From Chromera velia (Eukaryota; Sar; Chromeraceae): a stretch of 32,408 nt of DNA. The stretch covers positions 2,501 through 34,908 of the forward strand of contig JAHBMJ010000720.1 in NCBI GenBank assembly GCA_018398765.1, given 5' to 3'. Each line of letters begins with the position of its first letter. The first letter of the stretch is position 1. Under the pieces are notes generated by a model. The model ran no database searches, was not told the DNA's origin, and saw only the letters and a list, made by a program, of their open reading frames with translations. Made by a program: the position numbers and the translations under genes. Below are positions 6,558 through 31,935 of this stretch, piece after piece.

Positions 6558-8907
6558 CGTGCGTATAATCTTAGTGTTTACATACGTGCCGGCTTGCATT
6601 TTTCAGGCGAGCTTCTTTCTCCCCTGCGTTGTGCTGTCACTCTCTACGTTCTTCATGTTCCTGACGCTGACATGCTGACTGCATGAAGGAAGAAGAGCGA
6701 GTGAAGAAAGAAGAGTACCACCGTTGGACAGCTAAGGGACTCACAAATGGATGGATCAGTTACTGGTGATATGGATCTTACTTACACACCGACTTTGTCT
6801 CACTCATCACTCACTCACTCACGGACTCGTCTCTCGTGTCGTTCCCATCCCCAGGCTTCCTGCCAGGTCTTGCAGTCTTCTCTTGGCAGCACAAGAGAGC
6901 CACTGCGCTGGTTGTGTCTCCTCTCTCCATGTCGAGTCAAACAGCGATCCCCTGAGGAAGTGAGTGTTCCTTCCCATCATGTGCCCTTCCCTTGCTCCTG
7001 CTAGCGCCGAGACCTCGACAGATTCGGGTGTTGATGTGCAGTCGCCGTTTCTTTCTGCCGGGGGGCGGGGCGAATCTTTCGGGATTTCATCTGACAGTGC
7101 GGAGTTGAGAACGCCAGGCGCCACGGGACATGCAGGGAAACACACAGAGAAAAAAAACGGGGAGACGGCGATTCAGAGAACAGAATCAAAGACACCCAAA
7201 AACGGCAGCACGAGTCAGCAACGACACCCAGCTTCTGTTCCAGCTCAGGAAAACTAAGAGCGGGTGCATTCATCTCGGGGATTTGACGGTTTCTTGAAAA
7301 TAAGTGCGTGACTGAACAGAGGAATCAATGAGCACGAATGCATGACCAAACAAACATGCATAGGAACCAACTGCTTCAACAGAAAAACCAAACCAGGAAC
7401 TGCAAGCAACATCGGTCGCTCGAACCTCCTCAAAGCGTAAATGTACATTTCGCAGAAAAGTCCCTTCCCGAACTGAGTGCCGAGACCGGAATGCACAGAC
7501 GGACAGAAACTGTTCGATCATTGTGCAGAATCCCGACATAATTGGTGGTGACATACAGGGGCACGGCAGGCACAAGACAGAAAAGCTGGGACAGATACTG
7601 CATGGGCATTTAATGATGTGTTGAGGAGGGCAGGGAGGCGGTCGGTTTGCATAGTGAAAAAAGCCGGTGACTGTTGACTCCTTGGCTCACCAACCTGCAT
7701 GCTGCCCCCCTCCGCTACCTGACGATGCGGTTGTTGATGCAGAGATGGCCAGTGTGCTATCAACAGAGAGGGGTGTGGATTGGATCGATCTGGCAGAAGC
7801 ATATTGGATCTCTGCTGGACCCTGTGCTTGAAGGTGACTGTAAGATCCATTAGATCCCTTCAGTACGTTTGTTTCAGCTGAGAGTCCATCTACATGCGTG
7901 AGGACACCTGTTCCCTCTGGACCGCCAGTCGAGGTTCTTCGTCCTCCTTCTGTTGCTGCTTGGTGTTTTGCTCGTAGAAGTTTCGTCAGGGCTTCCTCGG
8001 AATCATCCGAAAGGAGCGGTGAGAAGTCAATGAGGATAAACGGGAGAGACCTCAGAAGGGGGGGGCGCGAACGTAGAGCGGCACAGAGATCACTCAAAAG
8101 TCTGAACACAGAAGGGAAATACACACATACAGCTCATCCAAGGCAATGACAAAAACAGATGCACAGATACGACGTTTGCACGAAATGAGACCAAAAGAGA
8201 CAGAAGAACGGGTACCATCAATTGACAGACTGAGACAAGAATCGGAATCCTCACTCCGTTGTTCCTGTCGACAGGCAGGCTCTAGATTCATCAAGGACAG
8301 GCAAGGAAGAGCCAGTCGAAAAGACAACACTTCCATGCGTCTGTTTGATCACAGATTCCTGAGCTCGCACCCCAGTACTTGAAAAAGCAGAAAGAAGACA
8401 TCGAAGAGGCCATAAAGTCGAATCATCTCCCTTTCGACTTCTTCCCCCCCCCCGCTTGTGCCGCCCCGTTTTTTCTTCCAGCTCCTCTTTCTGCCTCTGA
8501 CTTCCTACGTCCCTCCCCTTTCTGGCTGCGTCGGACTATCCCACCCTCGTAGTTCGCCCCTCTTTCAAATCCAAGGAAGCCCTGCACTTCACCGCCTAGA
8601 GCCACTCCTTGCCCTCCTTGAACTGATGTGTCTCACAGCTTTCGACAGATTAACGCGAACACCGAATCGAAGGAAGCAAGGAAGCAAACAAGAAAAGAAG
8701 GAAGGAAGGAAAGAAGGAAGGAAAGAAGGAAGGAAGGAAGGCAGGAAGGAAGGGAGGAAGGAAGGAAGGAAAGAAGGAAGGAAGGAAAGAAGGAAGGAAG
8801 GAAGGAAGGAAGGGAGGAAGGAAGGAAGGAAGGAAGGAAAGAAGGAAGGAAGGAAGGGAAGGAAGGAAGGACGGCAAGAAGGGAAGAAAGAGAGAAAGAA
8901 AAAAAAA

Positions 8908-8942
<35 letters not shown>

Positions 8943-11283
8943 GAAGGAAGGAAGGAAGGGAAGGAAGGAAGGAAGGGAAGGAAGGAAGGAAGGAAGGAAG
9001 GAAGGAAGGAAGGAAGGAAGGAAAGAAAGAAGGAAGGAAGGAAGGAAGGAAAGAAGGAAGGAAGGAAGGAAGGAAGGGAGGAAGGAAGGAAGGGAAGGAA
9101 GGAAGGAAGGGAAGGAAGGAAGGAAGGAAGGAAGGGCAGGAAGGAAGGAAGGAAGGAAGGAAGGGAAGGAAGGAAGGAAGGAAGGAAGGAAGGAAAGAAG
9201 GAAGGAAGGAAGGAAGGAAGGAAGGAAGGAAGGATGGAAAGAAGGAAGGAAGGAAGGAAGGAAGAAAGGAAGAAAGGAAGGAAGGAAGGAAGGAAGGAAA
9301 GAAAGAAGGAAGGAAGGAAGGAAGGAAGGAAAGAAGGAAGGAAGGAAGGAAAGAAGGAAGGAAGGAAGGAAGGAAGGGAGGGAGGAAGGGAGGAAGCGAC
9401 CAGCAGATGAGAAGAGGGAGTGACGGACCTGTCAGACAGGGGACTCTGGAGAAGAGACATCGGGTGGCTGACTCGCAAGACAGCATGGCGACTCAAGTCG
9501 ATGCCCTCCGGGAAGAAGTCACAGGCGCCCCCTGATCTTTCCATTTCCGGACTTGAACGGATGCGGGCACACAAGGCCGCCACATACCGCTCACACAACT
9601 GCAAAAATGCCCGCACCGACCCCCACATAGAGACAGACGGAGACGCCCTATGCTTCACTCTTTTCCTGCCTTATCTCCATGTACGTAACAGAAGAAGGAA
9701 AAAGAATCAAAAAGCGGACAGAGAGGCAGACAGACTGTATTGCTGTTTTTCTTTCTTTTCCTTGCGTCTGTTCATGCATACAACAGACAGACAGACTGCA
9801 TGATTTTTTCTTTTCCACCCTTGTCACAACAACGAATTCCATCCTTGAGTTACTGATTCAATGAACGAAATGAGCGACCGAACGAATGAATGAATGAACG
9901 AATGAATGGAACAGCGAACGAATGAACGACAAGTGGATGCACGGAGGAAGGAAGGACGGAATCAAGGAGTGCAAGACTTATCAAGGGACCAGGGAAGAAA
10001 AGAAGGAAGGACGGGCAACATTCATGATGAGAACCAAACTAACCGATTGTGCCAAATATCGCACATTGGTCTCTTCCGCAATGGTTTCACGGGAAATTTC
10101 CACTCGAAGGCCAAAAGCGGACTCTCCCACAAGTTTCTTTTCCGCTGCCACAAATCCATCAAAAGCAGAAAAAAACAAATCCGAAATTTTTGGACAGTTA
10201 ACTTTCAATACAGACGTCACCGACTGGGCCCACTCCTTTTCTCTCTTTGCACAGGCAGACACAAGGCTAAGTACGTGCCGCCTCCGCTCCTCCGGATTTG
10301 CATCTTCGTCCAGCTCTTTTGACGGTGCAAGAATGATTTGTGCAAACTCGGCAACAGCTTTATGAAAGTGTGCCACACTTTGTGTGGCTGCTTCACGGCG
10401 CTCCTCTGCACACACGTGGAGTGCCGTCACGAGGGTGTCCTCGTTGGTGTGGGAACTCAAGGCGAGACAACTCTCCGTCATTCGATCAGGAAGAAATTGA
10501 ATCAAAATCGGAGACGCCGCAATGCATGCAGATCAAAATTCGGCGCTCGATCAAAATTGACACACCTGTGACGACAAAGATCTCGAAGCTCTTTTCATGC
10601 AGACTTGGTACATCTCTTTCAGCACTTGAAAGAGGGTTTGGCCAGCAATGGCGGCTACCACTGTCCGCAGTGTCCGTCTATACTGCTTCGGAGTCAAGAT
10701 AGAGAAATTCATGACAAATCCTACAGAGGAGACGCATGATTTAGCTCGGACTGCGGAAAAGAAAGGGCGTGGAAATGGCGCGGAATGGCTCTCGCATGCA
10801 TGCATGCACCGAAAAAGAGACGGCCCGACGGGGGTCCGATGCATGGCGATCCGTCAATGCATGTCTGTCAGAGAGCTAGCCGAAGGCCGATCGATCCTGG
10901 AACCCCGGCCGATCAGTTCAATGACAGGTTGCCGATGTTGCCGTGGAGCGTACGATCATAACGAACACTCTTTTCTTCTCGATCAGTGCAGAACTGGTAG
11001 AAGTTCGCCGCCGACCCGCGTTGAGGCACTCGAAAGAAATGCATTCGACCGTCGGACTTGAAGGTCTGTTGCATCAGTGGTGATGCCTTCAGGCCGTCCA
11101 ATTTTGTGAGACCCCCCTTTCTCGAACGATCATCCAGGGTGATGAGTGTGAGTGAAAACAATTCCTTGAACTCTTCTGTCGCTGCGTAGAGCACGAAGCG
11201 TGGAGTCGCAGGGTTCCCTTCCCTGGCTGTATCTGTATGGAAGGGACTCACCTGAACTTCAGTCCGAATTCCGTTGCCGACAT
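6021..11283 (-). CDS. Uncharacterised 583-residue protein, eight-exon model
   Basis: The model is 11283-11252, 11222-10954, 10720-10566, 10472-10044, 9598-9429, 8101-7719, 7090-6827 and 6070-6021. All phases agree and the total is 584 codons including TAG. I do not recognise a family. The middle (exons 3-6) looks alpha-helical, with repeated Leu/Ala/Arg faces such as RLLSDLCAALRSR and FILIDFSPLLSDDSEEALT, recalling helical tethering or HEAT-type proteins. Exons 6-7 are Ser/Thr/Gly-rich and probably flexible; the C-terminus is acidic (GLLDEDIDIG). Exons 4 to 6 are best supported. Exon 1 needs a 29-nt intron (GTGAGT...CCAG), the exon 2 donor has two candidates (GTACGC or GTTATG, both phase 1), and the exon 4 acceptor GGAG is non-standard. 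The last two exons rest on phase agreement and a shared GTCCGT donor. The gene is head-to-head with the 5'-nucleotidase gene. Confidence 0.5.
6462..6563. repeat. (GTCA)n followed by (GT)n microsatellite
   Basis: Six GTCA units (about 6463-6488) are followed by about 60 bp of GT with a single A interruption and a short GCGC end. It lies in the last intron of the uncharacterised minus-strand gene. Confidence 0.93.
8672..9399. repeat. About 730-bp polypurine (GGAA)n tract in an intron
   Basis: Plus-strand GGAA/GAAA/GGGA units run almost without a pyrimidine for about 730 bp. The tract sits in the intron between exons 9598-9429 and 8101-7719 of the uncharacterised minus-strand gene, so it is polypyrimidine in the pre-mRNA. 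The long frames of GRKE or LPSF repeats it creates are not genes. Confidence 0.95.
9861..9930. repeat. (AATG/AACG)n tetranucleotide tract
   Basis: About 70 bp of imperfect GAATGAAC units lie in the intron between exons 10472-10044 and 9598-9429 of the uncharacterised gene. Confidence 0.85.
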
Positions 11284-19161: not shown

Positions 19162-21917
19162 TCACTTTCTTCCCCGCTGCGGTGTTGCTTTCAGGTGCGA
19201 GAGGACTGTTTTTGTTGCATGAGAACGAGAAGGGGAAGACGAAAGAGAAGAAAACCCACCACGGTGATCGGTAGGCATTCCCTCTTCGTCGAACTCTTCG
19301 GCGGCAAGAGCGTCGGCTGTCTCAGCGACTCTCTCAGGAGAAGCAACGGAAAAGGAGGACACACGAGCGCCTCCCGAGGGAGAAACCGTAGGAGTCTCCG
19401 GACACGCGACTTCTTCCTCCTCCTGCTTCTCAAAGAGGCTCGAGGCACTGCCCCCGCCTCCTTGTTTCGTGTTCTCCCCCTCTAAAGGTCTTTCGAACCT
19501 TGAACGAATCACGTCTAGAACCTCTTTTGTCCTTTCGTCTATGCTGGGCCCGCATGCCTCCTCACTCGCACCAACCGCCCACCCGTCACCCTCACCTTCC
19601 CTCTTCCCTCCCCCTTCCGCCTCGAGAGTCACTCGAGGCCCTCGGAGACGGACGAGGCTGAACTTGTCTGCAAGCTCTTCCATAATTCTCTCGTCGTCTT
19701 CCTGCGGCATCAGACACACACCGTCGCGCTTGACGGTGTCTCTCCGGAAAGGGAAGTGCAGAATAAGGCAGTCGGGAGATTCAGCCACCTCCCGTGCAAG
19801 GGCATTCGCCCTCTTGTGAATCTCCTTACCCCTCTCCGACTTCATATGACTTTTCTCTAGATAGAAGAGAATGTCAACGGGCGACCGATCAATGAGACGG
19901 AACGGCTGTGCGTGCCTCTCTCTGAAGATTGCTTCGTTCTTTTCAAGCAGCTGTTCCTGCAAATCGAGATGGATCTCTTTCGACCGACTGAGGTCCTCGG
20001 GAGTCCACCCCCTCTCCCTCATCACCTCTCGTGCTACTTCGGAGACGTACGGAATCATAGGAAACTGTTTTCTTATCGCCTCGAGAGTGGTTGTCTTTCC
20101 TGTCGAGCTCTGTCCCGTCAGGTAGACATCCGCTCGGGGGAATGGCCAAAGCTTCAAATCGGTGCTTGGGGCGTTGGCAACATCCCACTTGGGTTTGAGG
20201 ACTTCGAGGCCCTCCCCGTTTTCTGTGAAGAAGGAGAAGCGGGAAAGGGTGGAACTCAGATAGATTCTTGCTTCTTTCTCGGCAAAAAAACGGCCGGGGC
20301 ATGATTTTGATCCTGTTCCGAAACTGAGGGGAAAGGGCTCCCCGCCTCCCCCCTTTGCCCTTTCTATGTACCGATCGGGACAAAAGCTGTCGGGATCCGA
20401 GTACACACGGGGGTCACGGTTCATCCTTTCTATGTTGAAGATGACTCCGTCACCTTGTCGAACTGAGTGCTCTGCATGCATGCGAAAAGAAAGCCTTCCA
20501 AATTAAAGGAATTAAAAGAAATTGTTGAATCGATTGGATGCATGAAACCTTCGCAATTGCTTCAGGTCGCTGATAAGGACACGGTGGATATATGCAAGGG
20601 AAACGGTTGGAATGGTCGCAACTGATTGCTGCACGAAGAGGTACAAAAAGGGCAGAGAATCAAGTAGACAGACTGAGAGACACCGGCATGCAGACGCAAG
20701 GCAAGCAGAAAAAACATGCCCGTCTGGCTGACCGACCTCCGGAGCCAAGCTTCACCTCGGGGATATCCACGATTGCCTCTCGAAGGGACACAGGTCCCAC
20801 CGGGATCAGCCGCTGGGCTTCGTAGAAAAGTCGTTTGATAGCTTCGACAGACCCACTCTCCTCGCTTTCTGGCAAAACTTCTCTCCCCCTTTCCCCTTTG
20901 CTCCTTCTGGGAGTTGTCATTGCTGCAAGGCGGGGGTGTGTAGATGCTAGGACGAGGGAATAAAACAGCGTCAGACTTGTTGTGTCTGTTCCAGCCAACA
21001 GCATTTCGCACGTGTTCTGCCGTATCTCTGCAGCGGTTGCTGTACCCTCCCAGCCACCAGGTGCGGAGGTGCTGCTTTCGTGAATCTTGTGCAGTAGTCC
21101 CAAAAAGGATTCTCTTCCCCCTTCTCTTCCTTCCTCCTCCACCCGTCTTCCCTGATTTTGTTCCTTCCATAATCGCACGATTTCTTCCCCCTTCTCCCTC
21201 ATGAGGTCGATCGCTTTTGTGTGTTCATCGGACGACTGGGTGCTAAACAGGTGGAACTCCCACGCCTTGAAGTACCCACCAACGATCGCAATTGTGTTCT
21301 TCTTCCACTGGGAGTCGGACGTCAGGGAAGGCAGTCGAAGGAGACACTGGAGAGTCAGGCAGATTGTGAAATCACGAACTCGATCCAACATACTCACAGG
21401 CTGAATAAGAGGAATCTCTAGCCCCCCCTGAGCCATATATTCCCCTCCCTGCTGATCAAGCTCTTTTTGCCCTTCCTCCAGAGCCTTCTCGAATGCTTTC
21501 CTGTTTTTCTTCCACAGATCAACGTCATAATTCCATATCAGACCATTCTTGTGCATTCCCATTCTTTCCATGCCAACAGAAGACCCCATCCTCCTCGACA
21601 GGGCGTCCTTCTTCTTTCCAAGCTTCTCAAAAAGAGACATCGGAAATGAAGAAGACTCTCTGTCCAAACAGAGATCCAAGGACCACTCTACCGTACTTCT
21701 GTTCAATGTAAGCCGTCACTTCTGGGATTCTGGCCCAGCGATAGAAAACTGGGACGTTGAGGAACAGTAGATTTTCCCACGAACTCATTTGAACAAGCTC
21801 GAAGGGAGCTTTGCCACCGCTGTGCACAGCAAACCTCCTGAACCTGATCCACAGAGAGCGGACGGGGCCCCACAACCAGCGACCAACCAGATCGCTCAAA
21901 AGACGGGAGAGCCACAT
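19162..21917 (-). CDS. Cytochrome P450 fused to a C-terminal NadR/AAA_28-like P-loop ATPase
   Basis: Exon 1 is 21917-20756 and exon 2 is 20469-19162, about 822 residues. P450 marks: hydrophobic N-terminus MWLSRLLSDLVGRWLWGPV (likely ER anchor), helix C WKKNR (about 135), I-helix AGTDTT (about 308), K-helix EAQR (about 366), PERF-type PDRY and the haem loop FGTGSKSCPG (Cys about 444). The same exon runs on without a linker into DVYLTGQSSTGKTT (Walker A, Lys about 512) and a DRSPVD block (about 581), as in NadR/Ttd14-type AAA_28 ATPases, then an acidic Ser-rich tail from about 700. The P450 half should be a haem monooxygenase; the ATPase substrate is unknown. Exon 1 has a +1 shift at an A5 run (21629-21633); one base fewer joins DVSF to EKLGKKK. 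The exon 2 start at 20469 keeps phase but uses the second AG after GCATGCAG. The start is the ATG that heads the anchor. The gene is head-to-head with the RdRP-helicase gene. Confidence 0.8.
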
Positions 21918-22437
21918 CTTCTGTAACCTTCTCTCTCTCTCTGGTTGCCTTCTTTGGCCGGATTTCAAAGTCGGAAGTTGCTTTAGCAAAGGAGGTCGCC
22001 ACTTCAATGCACTCTTCCTTGAACTGTTTCAAATCTTCGAACCCTTTTGACATCGTTGTACTGCATTGAAGCATGGCACAGTCCTGGCAGTCCTCTAGCA
22101 TCCTAGCTAGCTCTATCGTTGGGCCCCACGCAACGGTTGCTGAGAATTAAGCGCGCGCAGTCCTGCTGTTAACTCGGTGCTGCAGCTCTCCGAGTTAATC
22201 CCAGACACATGCCGTCTCCTTTTGTCGAGTCCTCGATGCGCACGCTGTTCGAAACCCCCACGCGGCAGTCGTGCTTCTGAAGTTCACTCAGACTTCTCTG
22301 TACATTCAATGCGCGAGACGAGGCTCTTGAAGGTTCCAAACCATGCCTTGGTGTCAGAGTAATTGAGACTTTTCGAGGTTTGGGGACCGTCAGAAAGTTG
22401 TGACAGACAGTCACCACTTCAAACAAGCGCAGTCTGC
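21918..22437. promoter_or_regulatory. Divergent intergenic region between the P450-ATPase and RdRP-helicase genes
   Basis: About 520 bp separate the two opposed starts, so both promoters, and possibly a 5' non-coding exon of the RdRP gene, should be here. The minus strand has an open frame upstream of the P450 ATG in another phase (from about 22101), which could be leader sequence or an unrecognised exon. No core promoter motif stands out. Confidence 0.3.
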
Positions 22438-25400
22438 ATGAAATTATTAGCCCGAGTCAGCTTGCATGCTGGAAATAGCTCGGCAAGAATAGACGCGACA
22501 TGGTGCATGGTGACGATTTTTGTTGTTTCCAGCTTACCTTCCTTGCGCCCTCCTGTCTCTTGGAGGCGTGAGCTCGGCCCCGAGATTCAAGTGAGGGAGC
22601 TATCCGAGAAGGATTTACGGACAGCAGTGGTGGCAGCAGGAGAGTTGCGATCCTCCATTGTTGTCTTGTTGACCTCTTCTGATGACCCAGGAAGTGCAGA
22701 TTCCGTGCGTGACTATCTGCACGAGAAAAGGCTCTGCTTCATTGAAGAACCGAGTAGCACATCACGCAGCCCGAGGTTTTTGCAGAGACAAATTCTGGAG
22801 ATCCACGGGGATCCTTCACTTTCGACCCCCACTTCGATCCCCTTCCAACTCCCTCCTTTCCAGATCCTCTTGAAATGCAGAGGAGCATCTCAATGGACTC
22901 CCCGTCTGGCCTTCCATCGGTCGAGAATCCAGCTCTCTGTGAAAGAGCAAGCGAATCCTCCCCGTCTCTTTCGTGTGCCAGAGGAGCGGGCGCAGGAGCA
23001 GTCTCAGGGGGGACCCTTTTCGCCTCCCCGTCTCCGACCGTCGGAGATGTTGATGGTCAGTTTCGACCAGTCAAGTTCAGCAGCCTACGCATCCGCCATT
23101 CTGAGATCTGGGGTGATGCTTGGAAGGGACGAGTACCATTTCTTTGGCTGCAGCGGCCAGGGTCTCAAGGAGCGCACTGCCTATTTTTTATGTGCGCCCA
23201 GCCAGGCAGCAGTACGCCAGAGACTTCTCCACTTCGGACAGTTCGAGGCCGCAAAATCGCCTGCAAAGTTTTTGGCGAGAGTCAGCCTGATTTTCTCTCG
23301 AGGCACCCCGACGGGAGTGCGTCCCTGTGTGTGGCGGTCTGTACCTGATATTCCCGCGATGGAACCGAAGAAAGTCTTTACCGACGGCTGCGGGTTGGTT
23401 GGCGAATCGCTGGCCTGGCGACTTGCGCTTGCAGTCGATGCAGTGTGTGCTCCGTTCAGCATTAGCACTGCGGCATTGTCGAAGTTCCCGGCTTCTATCC
23501 GCAGAGAGCTGACGCGTGAGCAGGAGAAAGAGTTAGAATCACGCCCAGACGGCTGTCTCCTTCTCCCCTCAGTATTCCAGATTAGATGGCAGGGGAACAA
23601 GGGCGTGGTCTGTCTTGACAGGTCAGGATCGACTGCCGCTGAGGAGCTGGTAGTGCGGCCTTCGATGACCAAGTTTGAAACAGAAGTTTTCCCCACAGTA
23701 GACGTTGTGAACTGGTCTCGTCCCTATGCTTTTGGTAAATTGAATACACAATTCATCACCCTCCTTTCAGGATTGGGGGTCCCTGATGAAGCTTTCTTGG
23801 ACATTATGGCTGAGCACTTTCAGCTCCTCGACAGAGCCATGTCCGAGCCCGATGCTGCACTAGGCCTTGCCGTCGCTGCTGGGGATGTGCAGCTGGCAAG
23901 ACGCATTGCAGCATGTGCAAATGTGACGCAGGATGTGGCAATCCGGCAGTCTCTAAAAAGACTGCGCCAAATTTCTTGGAAAAAGGAAGGAACGCAATCC
24001 CCCAGAGAGTGCCACCTTGAAGCCCAGGCTCTTGGTGGAGCAGTCCCGTACTCTATTTGGGGTCTGCGACCATCTGGGGGTGCTGGAAGAGGGCGAGTGT
24101 CTCGTCCGAGTCATTGTCGACGGAGAGCCTCGATCCATCTGTCAACCCGTGATTGTTTCCAAAAACCCCTGCTACCTTTTGGGGGACGTCCGCGTTCTCC
24201 GCGGCGTCTCCTCTTTTTCCGATAACGGTAATCGAGCAGCCTCTGCTGAACGGGGGGGGATTCGGGCCCTCGAGAGGGATTTGTGTGAGTGCATTGTGTT
24301 CCCAACCAAAGGGAGACGCCCCCATGCAGATGAAGTTGCGGGGTCGGACCTCGACGGAGACCAGTTCTTCGTCTGCTGGGATCCCCGACTGATTCCCCCC
24401 AGAGTATCCCCCGCTTACACCTATCCTTCCGCAGATGTGCAGCCACTAGTGGGGGGCGTGACGCTTCAAGCATTGGCTGACTATTTTGGGCGGCAGAACG
24501 AGACGAGACGCACAGTTGGATTGATCGATACGCTCTTTTGCCGATGGCGCGATGAGAAAGGGCCCGGAAGTATGGAGTGTGAGTACCTGGGAAAGCTGTT
24601 CTCGAGAGCCATCGATGCAGCGAAAACAGGGGAGACGGTGCGCGTTCCCTTGACGCTCCGAGATGTCCCTGCGTCTTCGTCACTCCTGATACCTGCTTCA
24701 GACACACAAGCAGTCCCTGGGCGTAGTCGTCCTATTTGGTTGAGACTTGAGGACGAAATTCTTCGTCACCTGTCGAGGGAGAGCGAAGGAGGGGGGGAGG
24801 GGGAGGGTGAGGGTGATGAAAAGGCAGAACTTCACGGCGAACGAGACCGGCTCTTGGTGTCGTCTCTCGAACGTCGGGAGTGGGAGAAGGTGACTCGACA
24901 CTCTAGATTGAGCACCGACGAGAAACTCCAATTTCTTCTGCCAGCCCTGCACAGGGCGAGAGAAGAGTTTAAGTTCGAGGAATGGATTTCTCGCTTGAAG
25001 GAGCTGGCGAGAGAACTAAACTTGTCTCGACTTTCCCTGCCCGAACAGAAACGTGCCTTTGAGGTCAGTCAGTCGGCATGTGAATGACTATGGGGCCTTA
25101 AGAGGAATTTGGAAACTGATCGGTTGAAAGGGAGCATGTCGACCCTGTTTGGAAACATTCACAGGAGCAGAAGTAATTTTGTATTGAACGACCTATCATC
25201 TAGTCCGTCCTCCAAATTGTTTGCTTCGTGCGCCGCTTTCCTCTCCTTTTCTGCGTGTGTGCAGGCAGGCATCCCCCGCATCCTCCTGTGCAACGCGCTG
25301 TCATACTCCGAAATTCTTTCCGCCGAGGCTCTCCACACGTTCCTTCTGGAGTCTTCGAACCCCGGATGGCGGCTTTTCCACCGTGCCGCAGGGCCCTCAA

Positions 25401-28400
25401 GTGACCTTCGTCCTCTGGGGGCAGCCCTCAGACAGACCCAGAGAACTCTGGCAGTTCTTGACCTCCTGACCACACCCACAACACAGGCAGGCAACGTACA
25501 GGAGAGTTCTGCCGGAGAGGTTCGGGTCAGAGTTCTTCTCGACTTTAGAGGTCGACTCGATCTGTCGGGAGACAACATAAAGGAGCACGAGTTGCCTGCC
25601 TGCTCGTTTGCATCCTTCTTTCTCTCCGATCGCTTTCCCGGCCTGGCTCGACGTCGTCTCTTTCCCTCCGCCCTCTTTCTAGACCTTGAAACATCGTCAG
25701 GGCTTCACCGTCTGCAGGTGTACCGACAGCGAAATCTTCAAAACACCTTCATTTGCTTCAAAGTCTGGCCATCCGCCGGAAAGAAGGCACCGCCTTCGCG
25801 CTATCTCCGTGCCAGCATAGATCTCACCGCTTTTCCAGGCGATATACTCCGCCACCCGAATACTCCCCACCCTACTGTGAACCAAGCAGATTTGCAAAAT
25901 CTGGAAATTTTCGTTTCAGACGATGACATGTTCGCAAATGCTCCCAGTGGTGTGATGCGAGAGAATGAAACGGGGGACGTTTTTGACATTCCAGAGACGG
26001 TCGGGGACACTGCAGGAGGGGGGGAAACTGAGGAGGATTTGGTTGCTGAGGTCGAAGTGATCTCAGATCTGCAGCGGCGCCTCGAGTGCCCTCTCCTACC
26101 TGATGGGGAGGAGTGGGGTGCCTCGATTTGCTGCCCCGATTCCCCCCCTCTGGTCTTTCAAAGCGATCCCTCAGTTGAGGTCCCGGAGCGCCTTCTCGTT
26201 GCTGCAAGAGAGGGAAAGATTTTGGCTGTTCTCCAGTCTCTCCTGGTCGCAGCAACAGCAGCTGGGTCCAGAAGGGGCTCACCGAGACCGCTTTCTGAAA
26301 GGGAAACCGGATTTGCGTCTGTCGCCCCCAATCGTTTCGAAGGGTCGCAGTTTGCTGTCTCATCGGAAAGGACTGAGAGTCGACCTGAAGGCGCGTGTGG
26401 CAGCGTTACGGAAGCTTTGAATCAGGAAAGCGGGGAGGCGCTTATGAGGGGTCGCGGTCTCTTCTGTGTCCTCAGAATTGTGCTGCAAGAGGTCTCTGAC
26501 CTCCTTGGACCCCTGAGTCTCTCCAAAGTGTCCCCACAGAGTGCAGAACTGCTCTCGACCGCCTGTTTGGCTGTCGACAGTTTAAGCCCTCAGTGCCTGC
26601 AAACCGCTCGTGCCATTGATGTGGGCGCAGTGATTCTCCTTGTCAGGCGACTCAGTTTGCAGAGAGAATCAGAACTTCTGCTAGATGCCTGGTCGAATTT
26701 TTACAGCCATAGCAGGTGCTTGCACCGCACTCACTGCGGCAAAGCAGAGAGGAGAGAAGCAGAACAGACAATTACGGGGATCTCAGTTGACGTTCCCAGT
26801 CACGCCACACTAGAAGCGGGCGTCAGTAGCCCGATCCCTGAGAGTCCCCACTCTCAATCTGAAGGGGCTCCGAATCGTGAAAGTGTCCCGTCCGAGACAG
26901 CCGACGCGCACTGCAGACGCAGTGAGTTTACCCTCCTGGGTCAGAATGCTGCCGAGTGTTGCGCTTTGTGGCAGCTTTTCTTCCAGTGCCCATTCCGTGA
27001 GGCGAAAGAGATTCTCAGACGACTCTTCTTCCCCACCTGCGGCTCGAAGTCAGTCAATTGGCGCAATAGTGCAGCTTTTGCAGGTTTTTTTTTTCTTTTC
27101 CCCCTTTTCCGCTTCTGCTAGACGAAAGGCGCATCCCATGCGGTCAGCTGTCAGTAAGTTTTAAAGTCAATTCTGTTCTTGTGCGTTGGTCAATTAAGGT
27201 CGGCTGCCAGTGCCCTGCACGGTTCTTGTCTCAACTGAAGTACTTGGTCAAGGAGAGAGGGACATATTGGCGTGCAGAGGGAGAGCCGGGGAAAGAACTT
27301 TGTCAGATCACGCCCCTCACGTTGATCCTACGTTTTGGTACGCTTGCAGGTGTGGATGCTGCGGTTCTGATGGTGGCCTTCAAGGTCTCCTTTGCCTTCC
27401 AAGCCAAGTTGGGGGTGTGGAGACTGGTGGCAGCATCACAGCACCGACAGATGAAGATCAGCGAGCCCAAACCTCGACTCTGCAGACGTGGCGTCGGTGG
27501 GCATCAGGCCTGACTGCGCCGGATACGATGCCTGTCACTGAAGCGGAGGCCGCTCTGTTGCGTGATTTCTACGTGCATCGGTTGTCGTATTTGCACTTGC
27601 TCGCCTTCTTGGCCGAGGAGGAGGCAACCGCGCAGAAAGATGCGATGTCAGAGGGAGGGCATGACAAGGTTTGGCATCGGGAGACGCCAAGACAGAGACG
27701 GACGGTGGGACAGCTTTCGATCCCCCTCTTTGACGTCATAGGTCGGTGAATGAATGGCACTGGGAGGGCATAAGAGACGGGCCTTGTGCATTTTCTAGGT
27801 GCATTTTCCAAATGGACTATTTTCAGGTGGGTGGGGGGATGGATCTGATCGTAAGATCACCGTGTGATGGAATGCCTTTTCGTTATTCCAGCAGAATGTT
27901 CTCCTTCTCTAATTATGGACCGACTGCATTTTCTTTTCATATGCGGCGCATGTCATTGACAGGGAAAAGGTACGCCAAAGCCGTGCTTCCAAGTGTACTC
28001 ACACATATCCATGCGGCAAACACGTGATCGCATCATGCAGAGGTGGGTGAACATCACCACAAAAGCAAATATACACTCGCACACCGTCACACTATCAGCC
28101 ACGCATGGGCTGACGAATCACCCCACTCACAGGACGATGCAGATGAAAAACGCAGTGCACAGTAGAGACACGCGTACATATATCTATTGCAGGGTCCCGC
28201 ACTGAGGCATTTGGCAGTGGAGAGTCGAGCTCGAGACAGAAAGAAAACACCGAAGTCCCGCGAAGCGCCGACCATCGTGCTGCAGATGTTAGCGCGGAGG
28301 CAGCGGGCCTCAGTGGTGAGTCTCTTGAGAAAAGACGGCCGCTCCCCGCCCTCCGGGGTCCAGATGAAGAAGGGATCAGTGAAAGAGAAGACGAGGAGGA

Positions 28401-30978
28401 GTTGGTGATTGAGTTTTTCTACAGGGGAGCGGGAGCAGTGGGGTTCCTACCTTCCTCTTTGGTGGGTGCCACAGTGGCAATTGAACGGGAGAAGGATGTT
28501 GCCGCAGTCCTTCGGCCCCCAAAAGAAACAGCAGGGGAATTTGGGGCGAGGATCGTGTCTGGCTCAAATGAGGCGCCCCGTCGTGTCTCTCCCAGATGCC
28601 CAGTTGCATTTGGTGTCGTGCGGTCCTTTCAAGAGGAGCCGCTGGTGTTGGAGGTGGAGATTCCTTTCCCCGGACCCCCGTTGATTCGAGCAGCGTTGCA
28701 GAAACAGCGTAGCTGGATGTGGCAGCTCACTGTGGTAGGAAACATCCCAGTTTTTGAGAGGGTCAGACGGTCGATCTCCGACCTTTCAACCTCCTCTCCA
28801 AGAAACATCCCGTTGCTCCCACTCATTTCGGCCGCCTCCCTTAGCAGCCGGAGTCCCCCTGAAACGAATTATGCTTCACAAGCAGCGGCACACAACGACT
28901 TTTCGAACCTGTGCAGTCCCTCTGATTTTCAAGCAGAGGGCCTGAGCCTCAACGAAGAGGGAAGAAGCTCATCGGACAGGGAAAGGGGGAGGTGTGGTGA
29001 CTTTGGACAGCCATCATTGCCTAGTCCTGATGGTCTGAGTTCCATGCAGGGAATTTGCTTGAATGACAGCCAGAAGCTTGCTGTCTCCGCTGCCCTCCAG
29101 AACAGACTCACCCTGATTCAGGGACCGCCAGGAACGGGAAAGACCGAGACCGCATGCTGTATCATACAGACATTTCTACAGCGGTACAACCCAGCAGAAA
29201 GTTCACCGTCAGGCCTTGCGCCGAGAGGTGCAATTCGATAGAGCCGGTATGTGGGAGAAGAGTCGCATCAGGAGGGACAAAGCTTGACAGAACTCCCTCG
29301 AGCATCTAACGTCAACATACCGCGAGATGACGCACTCGGTCAAACGAGAAAGTCAGCCACTGGCGTTCCCCCCCCCCAGCCCAGCCATTCCCGTAGCGGA
29401 CCGCGGGTCTTGGCTGTGGCGGAGACGGCCGTGGCAGCGGCGAATCTTTCCCGCCGTCTGGACTCCATGGGAGTTCGAGTGGTCTGTCTTGGAGGCCGTT
29501 CGCACGGCTTCGACGAGGCACAGGGAGGGTTTCCCTTCCGCCTGACTCTGGAGGGCCGGCTTGAGGCCCTTCGTCAGGCAGGTTCCCGCACACACGCAAA
29601 AGATGGGACTGGGCGTCGCGTACGCAGTCAAAGATTTGTGCAGAAAGTGATCCGAAGTGCGGAGGTCATTTGTGCAACGTGTGCCGCATCTGGAGAGCCC
29701 GCTCTTTTGAATTGCCTAGCTCGTTTCGATCTTCGTTTCGAATTGTTGTTGATTGATGAGGCCACGCAGGCCTCTGAACTTTCCACCTGGGTTCCGCTTT
29801 CTGTTGCAGCACAGAGTGAGCATGTGTGTCTGATAGGAGATCAGATGCAGCTGCCTCCAACAGTGATCGGTGTAGGTGTAGAGGGACGCGGCAGCCAGGT
29901 GCGGGGGGAAGGGGGATCGTACAACCACAACCCACCGCCGAGCACTGTCAGCTCACGCGTGGGTAATTCATTCTCTCACGAGTCACCACCTCTTGAGAGT
30001 CTGAAAGTCTCTTTATTCCACAGCCTCGCTGCTGGGGTGCTTCCTGTCTTCCTCCTTGACGTTCAACACCGAATGCACCCTGCGCTCTCCGCGTATCCCA
30101 ACGAGACCTTCTACGCAGGGCGGCTCAAGGATGCTCCCGGACTCGCTGATACACGTGTCCCACCCGAATTTCCTTGGCCACACGATTTGCGTTCTTCCAG
30201 TAGCCCCCGACCGTTAATGCTGTTGGATGTTCAAGAGGGGAGAGAAAGACGGGGCATGGGGGGTTCCTTGAAGAACGAGAGAGAGGCAGAGGTTGTCGTT
30301 CAACTGGTGCGACGTCTGATCGAAGGCCCTCCCGATGGGAGGTCTGTTGACTTGTCAAAACTGGTGCCTGCAGATCAGGTCGCTGTGCTGACACCCTACC
30401 GTGCTCAAGTGCATTGTATTCAGCAGAAGCTTTCAGAGTGCGGCTTGGCCTCCGCTGTTCCTGTAAGGACTGTCGACGGATTTCAAGGACAGGAACGCGA
30501 TGTTGTCGTTTTCTCTCTCGTGCGCTCCGGGCCCTCTCTCGGCTTTGCCACCTCTCCAGAGAGGGTCAATGTGCTCTTGACCAGATGCAGGCGAGGACTC
30601 ATAGGGGTTTTGAACAGGCAGGCATTCGAGAGCTCCGAGGTTTGGGGGGAAGGGATTCGAAGAACTCCGTCGAGGTCTCCCGCCTTTCTCTCTGAGGGAG
30701 ATGAGCCTCCGAGTCGCAGGGGCCGCGCGAGTCACAGAGCAGGGCGTCAGCCCGGAGAACCTGCCGGTACGACCGGTATGCGTGAGCATGCAAGCACAGG
30801 CAGTTCAGGTTCACGCGGAAGGGGTTACTCAACTTGCGGGCCCCATCGGGGGGGATTTAGAGGTCACAGGGGGGGAAGAGGTCGTGGAACTGGACCGGGG
30901 GGGAGAGGATCCAAACAGATCGAATTCCCAATGATTGTTGTATGTTCATCGTCATCCAAAATTCATGGTATATGTTAG
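22438..30978 (+). CDS. RNA-dependent RNA polymerase fused to a UPF1/Hrr1-class SF1 helicase with RGG tail
   Basis: Exon segments are 22438-25063, 25265-27048, 27350-27741, 28193-29200 and 29291-30978, about 2,500 residues. The RdRP part (to about 25063) shows YHFFGCSGQGLKE, VFTDGCGLVGESLA, FQIRWQGNKGVV, RPSMTKF, LFGVCDHLGVLEEGE and the catalytic GSDLDGD (Asp triad 24347-24361), so all hallmarks of eukaryotic RDR enzymes are present. A Ser-rich, partly ankyrin-like linker follows (exon 2). The helicase has a beta-barrel region, LNDSQ, GPPGTGKT (29122-29145), LLIDEAT (29746), GDQMQLPP, QHRMHP, DGFQGQERD and VNVLLTR. The C-terminus is RGG-rich. It would make and unwind dsRNA for silencing, by analogy with RdRP plus Hrr1 or ZNFX-1. 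Phases agree at every junction. Caveats: a +1 shift between 23955 and 24016, a TAG at 29239 removed only by the proposed 90-nt intron, and an uncertain start. ATG 22438 is the first in frame; ATG 22507, or an upstream exon spliced at 22532, are alternatives. Confidence 0.75.
29201..29290 (+). other. Proposed 90-nt intron removing an in-frame stop
   Basis: GTTCAC at 29201 and TTGACAG ending at 29290 bound 90 nt (30 codons) containing TAG at 29239-29241. The frame is the same on both sides, and removal joins RYNPAE to LPRASN through a Lys codon, between helicase motifs I and Ia. The donor is weak, so readthrough, a mutation or a sequence error are alternatives. Confidence 0.4.
30690..30920 (+). 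other. RGG/GAR-rich C-terminal tail of the helicase
   Basis: The last coding stretch is rich in Arg and Gly, with RGRGYS, HRGGFRGHRGGRGRG and GPGGRG clusters, typical of arginine-methylated RNA-binding tails. About 15 ordinary residues follow before the stop. Confidence 0.75.
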
Positions 30979-31470: not shown

Positions 31471-31935
31471 GCATGCCGGGGGCGAGTGGGGTGCTTTTTG
31501 CCCCCCTTTCTGCATAGGGGACTGGCGCTTTTCCGTAAAAAACTCGTTTTCATAATTGGTAAGGAGTTAGAAGCTGAAACTTTGTGTAAGAAGACGTTAT
31601 AATGATAGAAAAAGAACTATAGAACAGATTTTTTATATCATTTCTAGAAACATAGGCTGCCATACAAATTTTGTGAGTTTTAGGTAGTTTTGAGCCATTT
31701 TTTAACGGTTTTTAACAATAAGAAAAATGGTATAAAACTCACAAAATTTGTATGGCAGCCTATGTTTCTAAAAATGATATAAAAAATCTGTTCCATAGTT
31801 CTTTTTCTATATCATTTCAACGTCTTCTTACACAAAGTTTCAGCTTCTAACTCCTTACTAATTATGAGAACGAGTTTTTTGCGGAAATACGCCGCTTTAG
31901 GGGGGCAAAAAGCATTCCACTCGCCCCCGGCATGC
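31471..31935. mobile_element. 465-bp near-perfect inverted repeat (foldback/MITE-like)
   Basis: GCATGCCGGGGGCGAGTGG at 31471 is mirrored by CCACTCGCCCCCGGCATGC ending at 31935. The arms stay almost complementary for about 210-225 nt each, differing by a short insertion near 31500-31520 and scattered bases, around a short centre at about 31700-31720. There is no coding capacity and no clear target duplication. RNA crossing it would fold into one long hairpin. Confidence 0.85.

Follow-up and report, generated by a model that had tools for sequence, protein, structure and literature searches.

An RNA-dependent RNA polymerase collinear with a UPF1-like SF1 helicase in Chromera velia, and a eukaryotic family with the same domain order

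A locus of Chromera velia carries exons for an RNA-dependent RNA polymerase (RdRP), a UPF1-like SF1 helicase and, between them, a predicted TLDc-like domain, collinear on one strand and likely spliced together to yield one protein that would make dsRNA from ssRNA templates. Eukaryotic RdRPs are usually treated as lone enzymes, with partner helicases acting in trans. The locus lies in a stretch of 32,408 nucleotides of strain CCMP2878 (the window; contig C719, positions 2501-34908), in which the initial annotation had recognised one gene with an RdRP followed by an SF1 helicase. That reading agrees with the collinearity of the locus with fused relatives, one of which (P0125, containing AAA_28, RdRP and helicase) is by its name the complete ORF of a Trinity transcript. 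The gene start, initially set at 22438, fits better at 22507, the start used in UniProt entry A0A0G4FYX3. The features of the gene are as follows.

22507..30978, + strand: whole gene, predicted (N-terminal part, RdRP, TLDc-like domain, linker, SF1 helicase, RG-rich tail); Pfam and family profile, start as in A0A0G4FYX3
22507..22800, + strand: N-terminal part without a Walker A, predicted to adopt an alpha/beta fold; AF2 model, block pLDDT 58-80
23041..23976, + strand: RdRP, first part, frame 1; family profile 254-385 and 390-534, PF05183 58-306
23976..24020, + strand: shift of the RdRP from frame 1 into frame 2, due to a sequencing or assembly error or to a genuine lesion; profile position 534 ends at 23976 and 540 starts at 24020
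24020..25063, + strand: RdRP, catalytic part, frame 2, with DLDGD at 24347-24361; family profile 540-850, PF05183 337-546
25064..25264, + strand: intron 1, phase 0; GT-AG, joined frame
25265..25927, + strand: TLDc-like domain (fold predicted), conserved among the fused proteins
25928..27048, + strand: divergent linker; open frame, no Pfam match
27049..27349, + strand: intron 2, phase 2; GT-AG, joined frame
27350..27741, + strand: exon 3, part of the linker, with the weakest support among the exons; linker profile match at 27561-27638 (E 0.25, ranked second among 944 ORFs), and present as an exon in A0A0G4FYX3
27742..28192, + strand: intron 3, phase 1; GT-AG, joined frame
28193..29183, + strand: helicase stalk/1B and motif I (GPPGTGKT, 29122-29145); family profile 1356-1510 at 28564-29190
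29184..29396, + strand: intron 4, predicted, phase 2, containing the TAG at 29239-29241 (GT at 29184 or 29208, AG at 29384 or 29396); profile positions 1510 and 1512 separated by 207 nt
29398..30693, + strand: helicase RecA domains, motifs Ia-VI (DEAT from 29755); family profile 1512-1878 (309 bits), AAA_12 E 2.6e-45
30850..30909, + strand: RG-rich C-terminal tail

Repeats occur elsewhere in the window. A nested inverted repeat at 31471-31935, fold-back or MITE-like with arms 90, 95 and 97% complementary, lies 0.5 kb downstream of the RdRP-helicase gene, and at 8416-9670 there is a long low-complexity purine-rich repeat whose translation gives EGRK or SFLP repeats on either strand, in several frames.

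Domains, introns and reading frame

Both enzymatic parts are recognised by Pfam on one strand, at the places where the initial annotation had put them. PF05183 matches the ORFs 22363-24225 (E 1.1e-46) and 23957-25087 (E 3.2e-44) with 160 and 152 bits against a cut-off of 23.8; AAA_11 matches the ORFs 28147-29241 and 29242-30978, the latter also being matched by AAA_12. The catalytic motifs read from the DNA are present as described: DLDGD (the RdRP motif DxDGD), GPPGTGKT, and LLIDEATQ at 29746-29769. All 110 aligned relatives retain the three aspartates and the glycine of DxDGD; they also retain Walker A, for which they had been preselected.

The order of the parts was compared with a family profile made from 110 full-length fused relatives, Chromera excluded (111 sequences were aligned, 10 of 121 having been removed for their length, for a missing motif I or as a truncated Chromera record). 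Among the 944 six-frame ORFs of the window, seven match this profile significantly: one is an N-terminal-domain match in the neighbouring gene, and six fall in the RdRP-helicase gene, in order. Profile positions 254-385 correspond to 23041-23436, 390-534 to 23551-23976, 540-850 to 24020-25066, 846-1043 to 25253-25927, 1356-1510 to 28564-29190, and 1512-1878 to 29398-30693. The stretch 25928-28563 is mostly devoid of significant matches to the family or linker profiles; the two best of the 944 ORFs with the linker profile (28414-28689, E 0.07, and 27561-27638) are weak, and they lie within the gene and in order.

The three introns proposed initially all have GT-AG borders, their phases (0, 2, 1) agree, and the exons join in frame. 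Their splicing bears on a very improbable alternative, in which the locus holds two neighbouring genes, the RdRP gene finishing near 27121 and the SF1 helicase having a gene of its own further downstream. Without splicing of intron 2 the frame does close at 27121, and the linker is hardly conserved. However, the TLDc-like exon and the exon with the helicase stalk align with consecutive sections of one profile, both enzymatic parts occur in one predicted protein and in the same order in 112 of 112 relatives with both motifs (a named transcript ORF among them), and the public model A0A0G4FYX3 also joins the RdRP to helicase motif I. A single transcript for the whole locus is thus the prediction preferred here.

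The intervening frame, initially described as open, is so from 23957 to the TAG once the three introns are joined, but two interruptions had been overlooked: the frame change at 23976-24020, and the in-frame TAG at 29239-29241, which splits the helicase when these three introns alone are applied. The 207-nt insert with the TAG is best explained as a fourth intron, predicted from the sequence. Fourteen in-frame GT-AG pairs could remove the TAG, and four of them (29184 or 29208 with 29384 or 29396) leave the least extra sequence; the donor GTCAGG resembles GTCAGT of introns 1 and 2. Readthrough of the TAG is unnecessary, since relatives lack the whole insert. The public protein A0A0G4FYX3 (C. 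velia CCMP2878), the best protein match of the gene and one of which ten probe pieces agree exactly with the window, has 1890 aa and ends at 29238, directly before the TAG and without AAA_12. The public Chromera record therefore hides the fused architecture, as the annotated protein stops at a probably intronic TAG.

The frame change is of a different kind. In the assembly, the RdRP domain is split between two frames, with about five profile positions between 23976 and 24020, so that a normal intron would not fit without deleting conserved sequence; this explanation was rejected, conserved sequence running to 23976 in one frame and resuming at 24020 in the other. Such a lesion could mean that the fusion was inherited and has been decaying in Chromera, leaving a pseudogene or a gene for a truncated protein. 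The 109-nt intron (23935-24043) with which A0A0G4FYX3 bridges the frame change is in keeping with decay, as it removes some of the conserved RdRP sequence. Nevertheless, decay is considered unlikely: the frames outside the change are open given intron 4 (506 codons before, 1,963 after), the catalytic motifs are intact, and each of the six exon segments has its highest G+C at codon position 1, which is a weak sign and no clean coding test because some intron frames show the same pattern.

A fused family and its accessory domains

The initial annotation did not judge whether RdRPs with this layout were already known from apicomplexans or chromerids. The layout is not confined to chromerids: the same order is found in uncharacterized proteins of bivalves (Dreissena, Mya, Mercenaria, Mytilus), cnidarians including corals, sponges and diatoms. 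These relatives come from a search with the RdRP region, over which they are 35-41% identical to Chromera, and the best 120 of its 189 matches together with the joined Chromera model give 121 sequences, Chromera being counted twice. DxDGD is present in 120 of these, SF1 motif I in 113 and both in 112, with the RdRP first in 112 of 112. Chromera is the sole named alveolate among the best 120 of the 189 matches. A search with the helicase part alone gives 1415 matches, among which PF05183 is present in 38 of the top 40 and in 47 of the best 120; the two top rows are non-RdRP proteins with several helicase copies. This search adds lancelets and rotifers; the lancelet fused protein P0127 is presumably BL02069 of Branchiostoma lanceolatum. 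A viral origin was also considered and rejected: 51 pattern matches in viral contigs include no relative by tblastn.

For BL02069, the presence of AAA_12 in an RdRP is noted in a figure legend, and the main text of the same paper names neither TLDc nor helicase (PMC6396948). Stramenopile sequences are placed there inside the metazoan RdRP clade beta (PMC6396948). A term search finds the word 'helicase' absent from the main text of PMC6396948, PMC7943196 and PMC10062562, and in a non-exhaustive literature search the AAA_12 note on the lancelet RdRP was the sole mention of an RdRP-SF1 fusion. RdRP-TLDc-SF1 is thus a widespread eukaryotic RdRP architecture for which no earlier description was found. 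Fusions of another kind are known: RDRs of Dictyostelium, oomycetes, Hydra and Nematostella also join an RdRP to a helicase, but theirs is a DEAD-box (SF2) helicase placed before the RdRP, whereas in Chromera an SF1 helicase stands behind it (PMC4791657).

Chromera shares with its fused relatives the order of RdRP, conserved middle domain and SF1 helicase. The conserved domain between RdRP and helicase is predicted to have a TLDc fold. In the members scanned, the domain lies below every Pfam cut-off: PF07534 (TLD) is matched by three of 12 fused members, at best with E 0.0078 and 16.6 bits, under the cut-off of 24.5, and the Chromera domain matches no Pfam family. The profile of the domain finds no TLDc chain among PDB sequences.

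Unlike Chromera, most fused relatives carry an N-terminal kinase of the NadR/AAA_28 type. A profile of this P-loop kinase, built from 63 members, matches 90 of the 121 sequences; both Chromera rows are among the 31 that do not match, and the Chromera N-terminus scores -1.1 bits. Its first 98 residues are predicted, with moderate confidence, to form a small alpha/beta fold. The RG-rich tail reported at the other end, as an RGG tail, is real, but at least five RG in the last 160 residues occur in only 29 of the 111 aligned members.

Two AAA_28 domains are found in the Chromera genome (profile search of the 177.8 Mb assembly). One, on contig C658, has no family RdRP or helicase match in the 28 kb inspected. 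The other terminates a cytochrome P450 ORF in the window (19162-20502, - strand, with a NadR/Ttd14-type AAA_28 at 19672-20130); the P450 gene is divergent from the RdRP-helicase gene, and the domain, at its C-terminus, is 2.4 kb from the start of the latter. It scores 62 bits with the RdRP-type kinase profile against 59.8 bits with Pfam AAA_28, and among proteins of 0.55-1.75 times its length, the P450-AAA_28 protein has no relative but its own record. The closeness of this domain to the RdRP-helicase gene is striking post hoc, but the sequence does not tie the domain to the RdRP-borne kinases. Other TLDc proteins dock on V-ATPase. In a broader and improbable scenario, a silencing polymerase of four parts, with NadR-like kinase, RdRP, TLDc and UPF1-like helicase, would predate the split of animals, stramenopiles and alveolates and represent a basic type of eukaryotic RNA copying that has escaped notice. 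Its TLDc domain would dock on V-ATPase-bearing membranes and thereby place dsRNA synthesis at the sites of entry of foreign RNA into the cell, and the Chromera kinase would have moved out, to the end of the P450 gene 2.4 kb away.

Relationships of the helicase and polymerase parts

The initial annotation had assigned the helicase to a UPF1/Hrr1 class. Hrr1 is described as the S. pombe orthologue of ZNFX-1 (PMC9276528), and profile scores of the fused family are nearer to UPF1 (401 bits, first among 83 sequences scored) than to ZNFX1 (267 bits), which speaks for UPF1 and, with ZNFX1 standing for its group, against an Hrr1 origin. NAM7 (387), SEN1 (312) and SMUBP-2 (282) lie between these two, followed by DNA2 (237) and Aquarius (at most 166). 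When only 29242-30975 of Chromera is scored, UPF1 (127) comes slightly behind a SEN1-like chain (136). Likeness to UPF1 extends to the stalk/1B helicase core, which aligns to the family profile, and to the TC-GAGD-L stretch of UPF1, which is present in the consensus of the relatives. Chromera itself departs from this stretch, and differs from UPF1 further in the fusion of its helicase behind an RdRP; the Zn-binding (CH) domain of UPF1 was not found in the six ORF pieces scanned with Pfam.

Two helicase trees were built with UPF1 and ZNFX1 included, and neither decides the sister group of the fused clade. In the first tree (109 of the 111 fused helicases and five PDB chains), all fused helicases, Chromera included, separate from the PDB chains at support 94, support labels in both trees having been read after re-rooting and possibly being shifted near the root. 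UPF1 is the nearest of the five solved chains (distance 2.34; ZNFX1 3.14). In the second tree (48 sequences, with a weak backbone), unfused UPF1, SEN1 and SMUBP-2 form one clade with a diatom helicase group at support 71, and the main fused clade lacks five of the 26 fused helicases, which are placed elsewhere with supports of 28-57. ZNFX1 was chosen as the root of both trees. Without rooting, it sits between the fused helicases on one side and UPF1, SEN1 and SMUBP-2 on the other; the topology is therefore compatible with ZNFX1 as sister.

Unfused helicases of about 1,400 aa (P0128, P0130-P0132, P0134, P0194 and similar, diatom where named) match the family profile at about 1210-1882, i.e., from the late linker onwards, and seven of them fall with UPF1 in the tree. 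A local fusion of a Chromera helicase is disfavoured, as the helicase clusters with those of fused proteins from other species (the sole other Chromera helicase in the tree is the SEN1-like C529). Its closest grouping is with P0125, at support 84, and this placement within the family differs from that of the RdRP half, which groups with bivalve and cnidarian proteins at support 75 (RdRP tree, 34 of 132 sequences used).

The RdRP part of the family profile scores 367 bits with plant RDR2 and 83 bits with QDE-1. A plain Chromera RdRP (L028 on contig C1732; 490 bits to PF05183, positions 1-581, one in-frame TAA) is nearer to plant RDR2 than to the fused proteins in the same RdRP tree.

Proposed working and biological setting

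UPF1 moves 5' to 3'. In the proposed mechanism, the helicase of the fused protein would bind the ssRNA template and run 5' to 3', stripping proteins and structure from it. At the template 3' end, it would pass this end in cis to the polymerase, which would copy the template from there into dsRNA; as RdRP and helicase are tethered, the hand-over would be local. The TLDc-like domain would most likely be a docking module or surface. Alternatively, the helicase might peel the product strand, which is conceivable because this strand grows in the direction of the helicase.

The protein would, by analogy, work like the Rdp1-Hrr1 pair of S. pombe. In this pair (RDRC), as in nematode EGO-1 with ZNFX-1, an RdRP works with an SF1 helicase (PMC9276528). 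These systems differ from the Chromera protein in having two chains and a ZNFX1-group helicase, the Chromera helicase scoring nearer to UPF1. The initial view of the gene as a covalent RdRP-Hrr1 therefore holds as an analogy, but descent from that pair finds no support. No activity of any fused member is reported in the literature examined.

The dsRNA would be handed on to Dicer-like and Argonaute proteins. Candidate domains for both occur in the genome, with 20 Piwi matches spread over 14 contigs (18 above the cut-off) and five RNase III matches, two of them together on contig C774. Their presence makes a small-RNA pathway plausible in Chromera, in which the fused protein would produce dsRNA for RNAi. 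PF05183 has 10 matches on six contigs of the genome, and AAA_12 at least 59; among the AAA_12 matches listed, the contig of the RdRP-helicase gene (C719) is the sole one of the six PF05183 contigs.

A fairly unlikely alternative that shares the anatomy of the preferred reading is a working fused protein with a role outside RNAi, e.g., detecting foreign or aberrant RNA, or copying it, with no siRNAs involved. The TLDc-like domain is not known to be linked to RNAi. Branchiostoma, moreover, has the fused protein, and it showed no siRNA-like products although its RdRP genes are transcribed (PMC6396948), so that RNAi may not be the role. Against this stand the Piwi and RNase III domains of Chromera and the description of RNAi amplification as the only known function of eukaryotic RdRPs (PMC6396948). 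Production of dsRNA for RNAi is retained as the proposed role of the Chromera protein.

A conserved single chain would let the contribution of the helicase to dsRNA synthesis be tested by one point mutation. As lancelets, bivalves and corals carry the fused protein, it may also provide a handle on animal RdRPs of obscure role.
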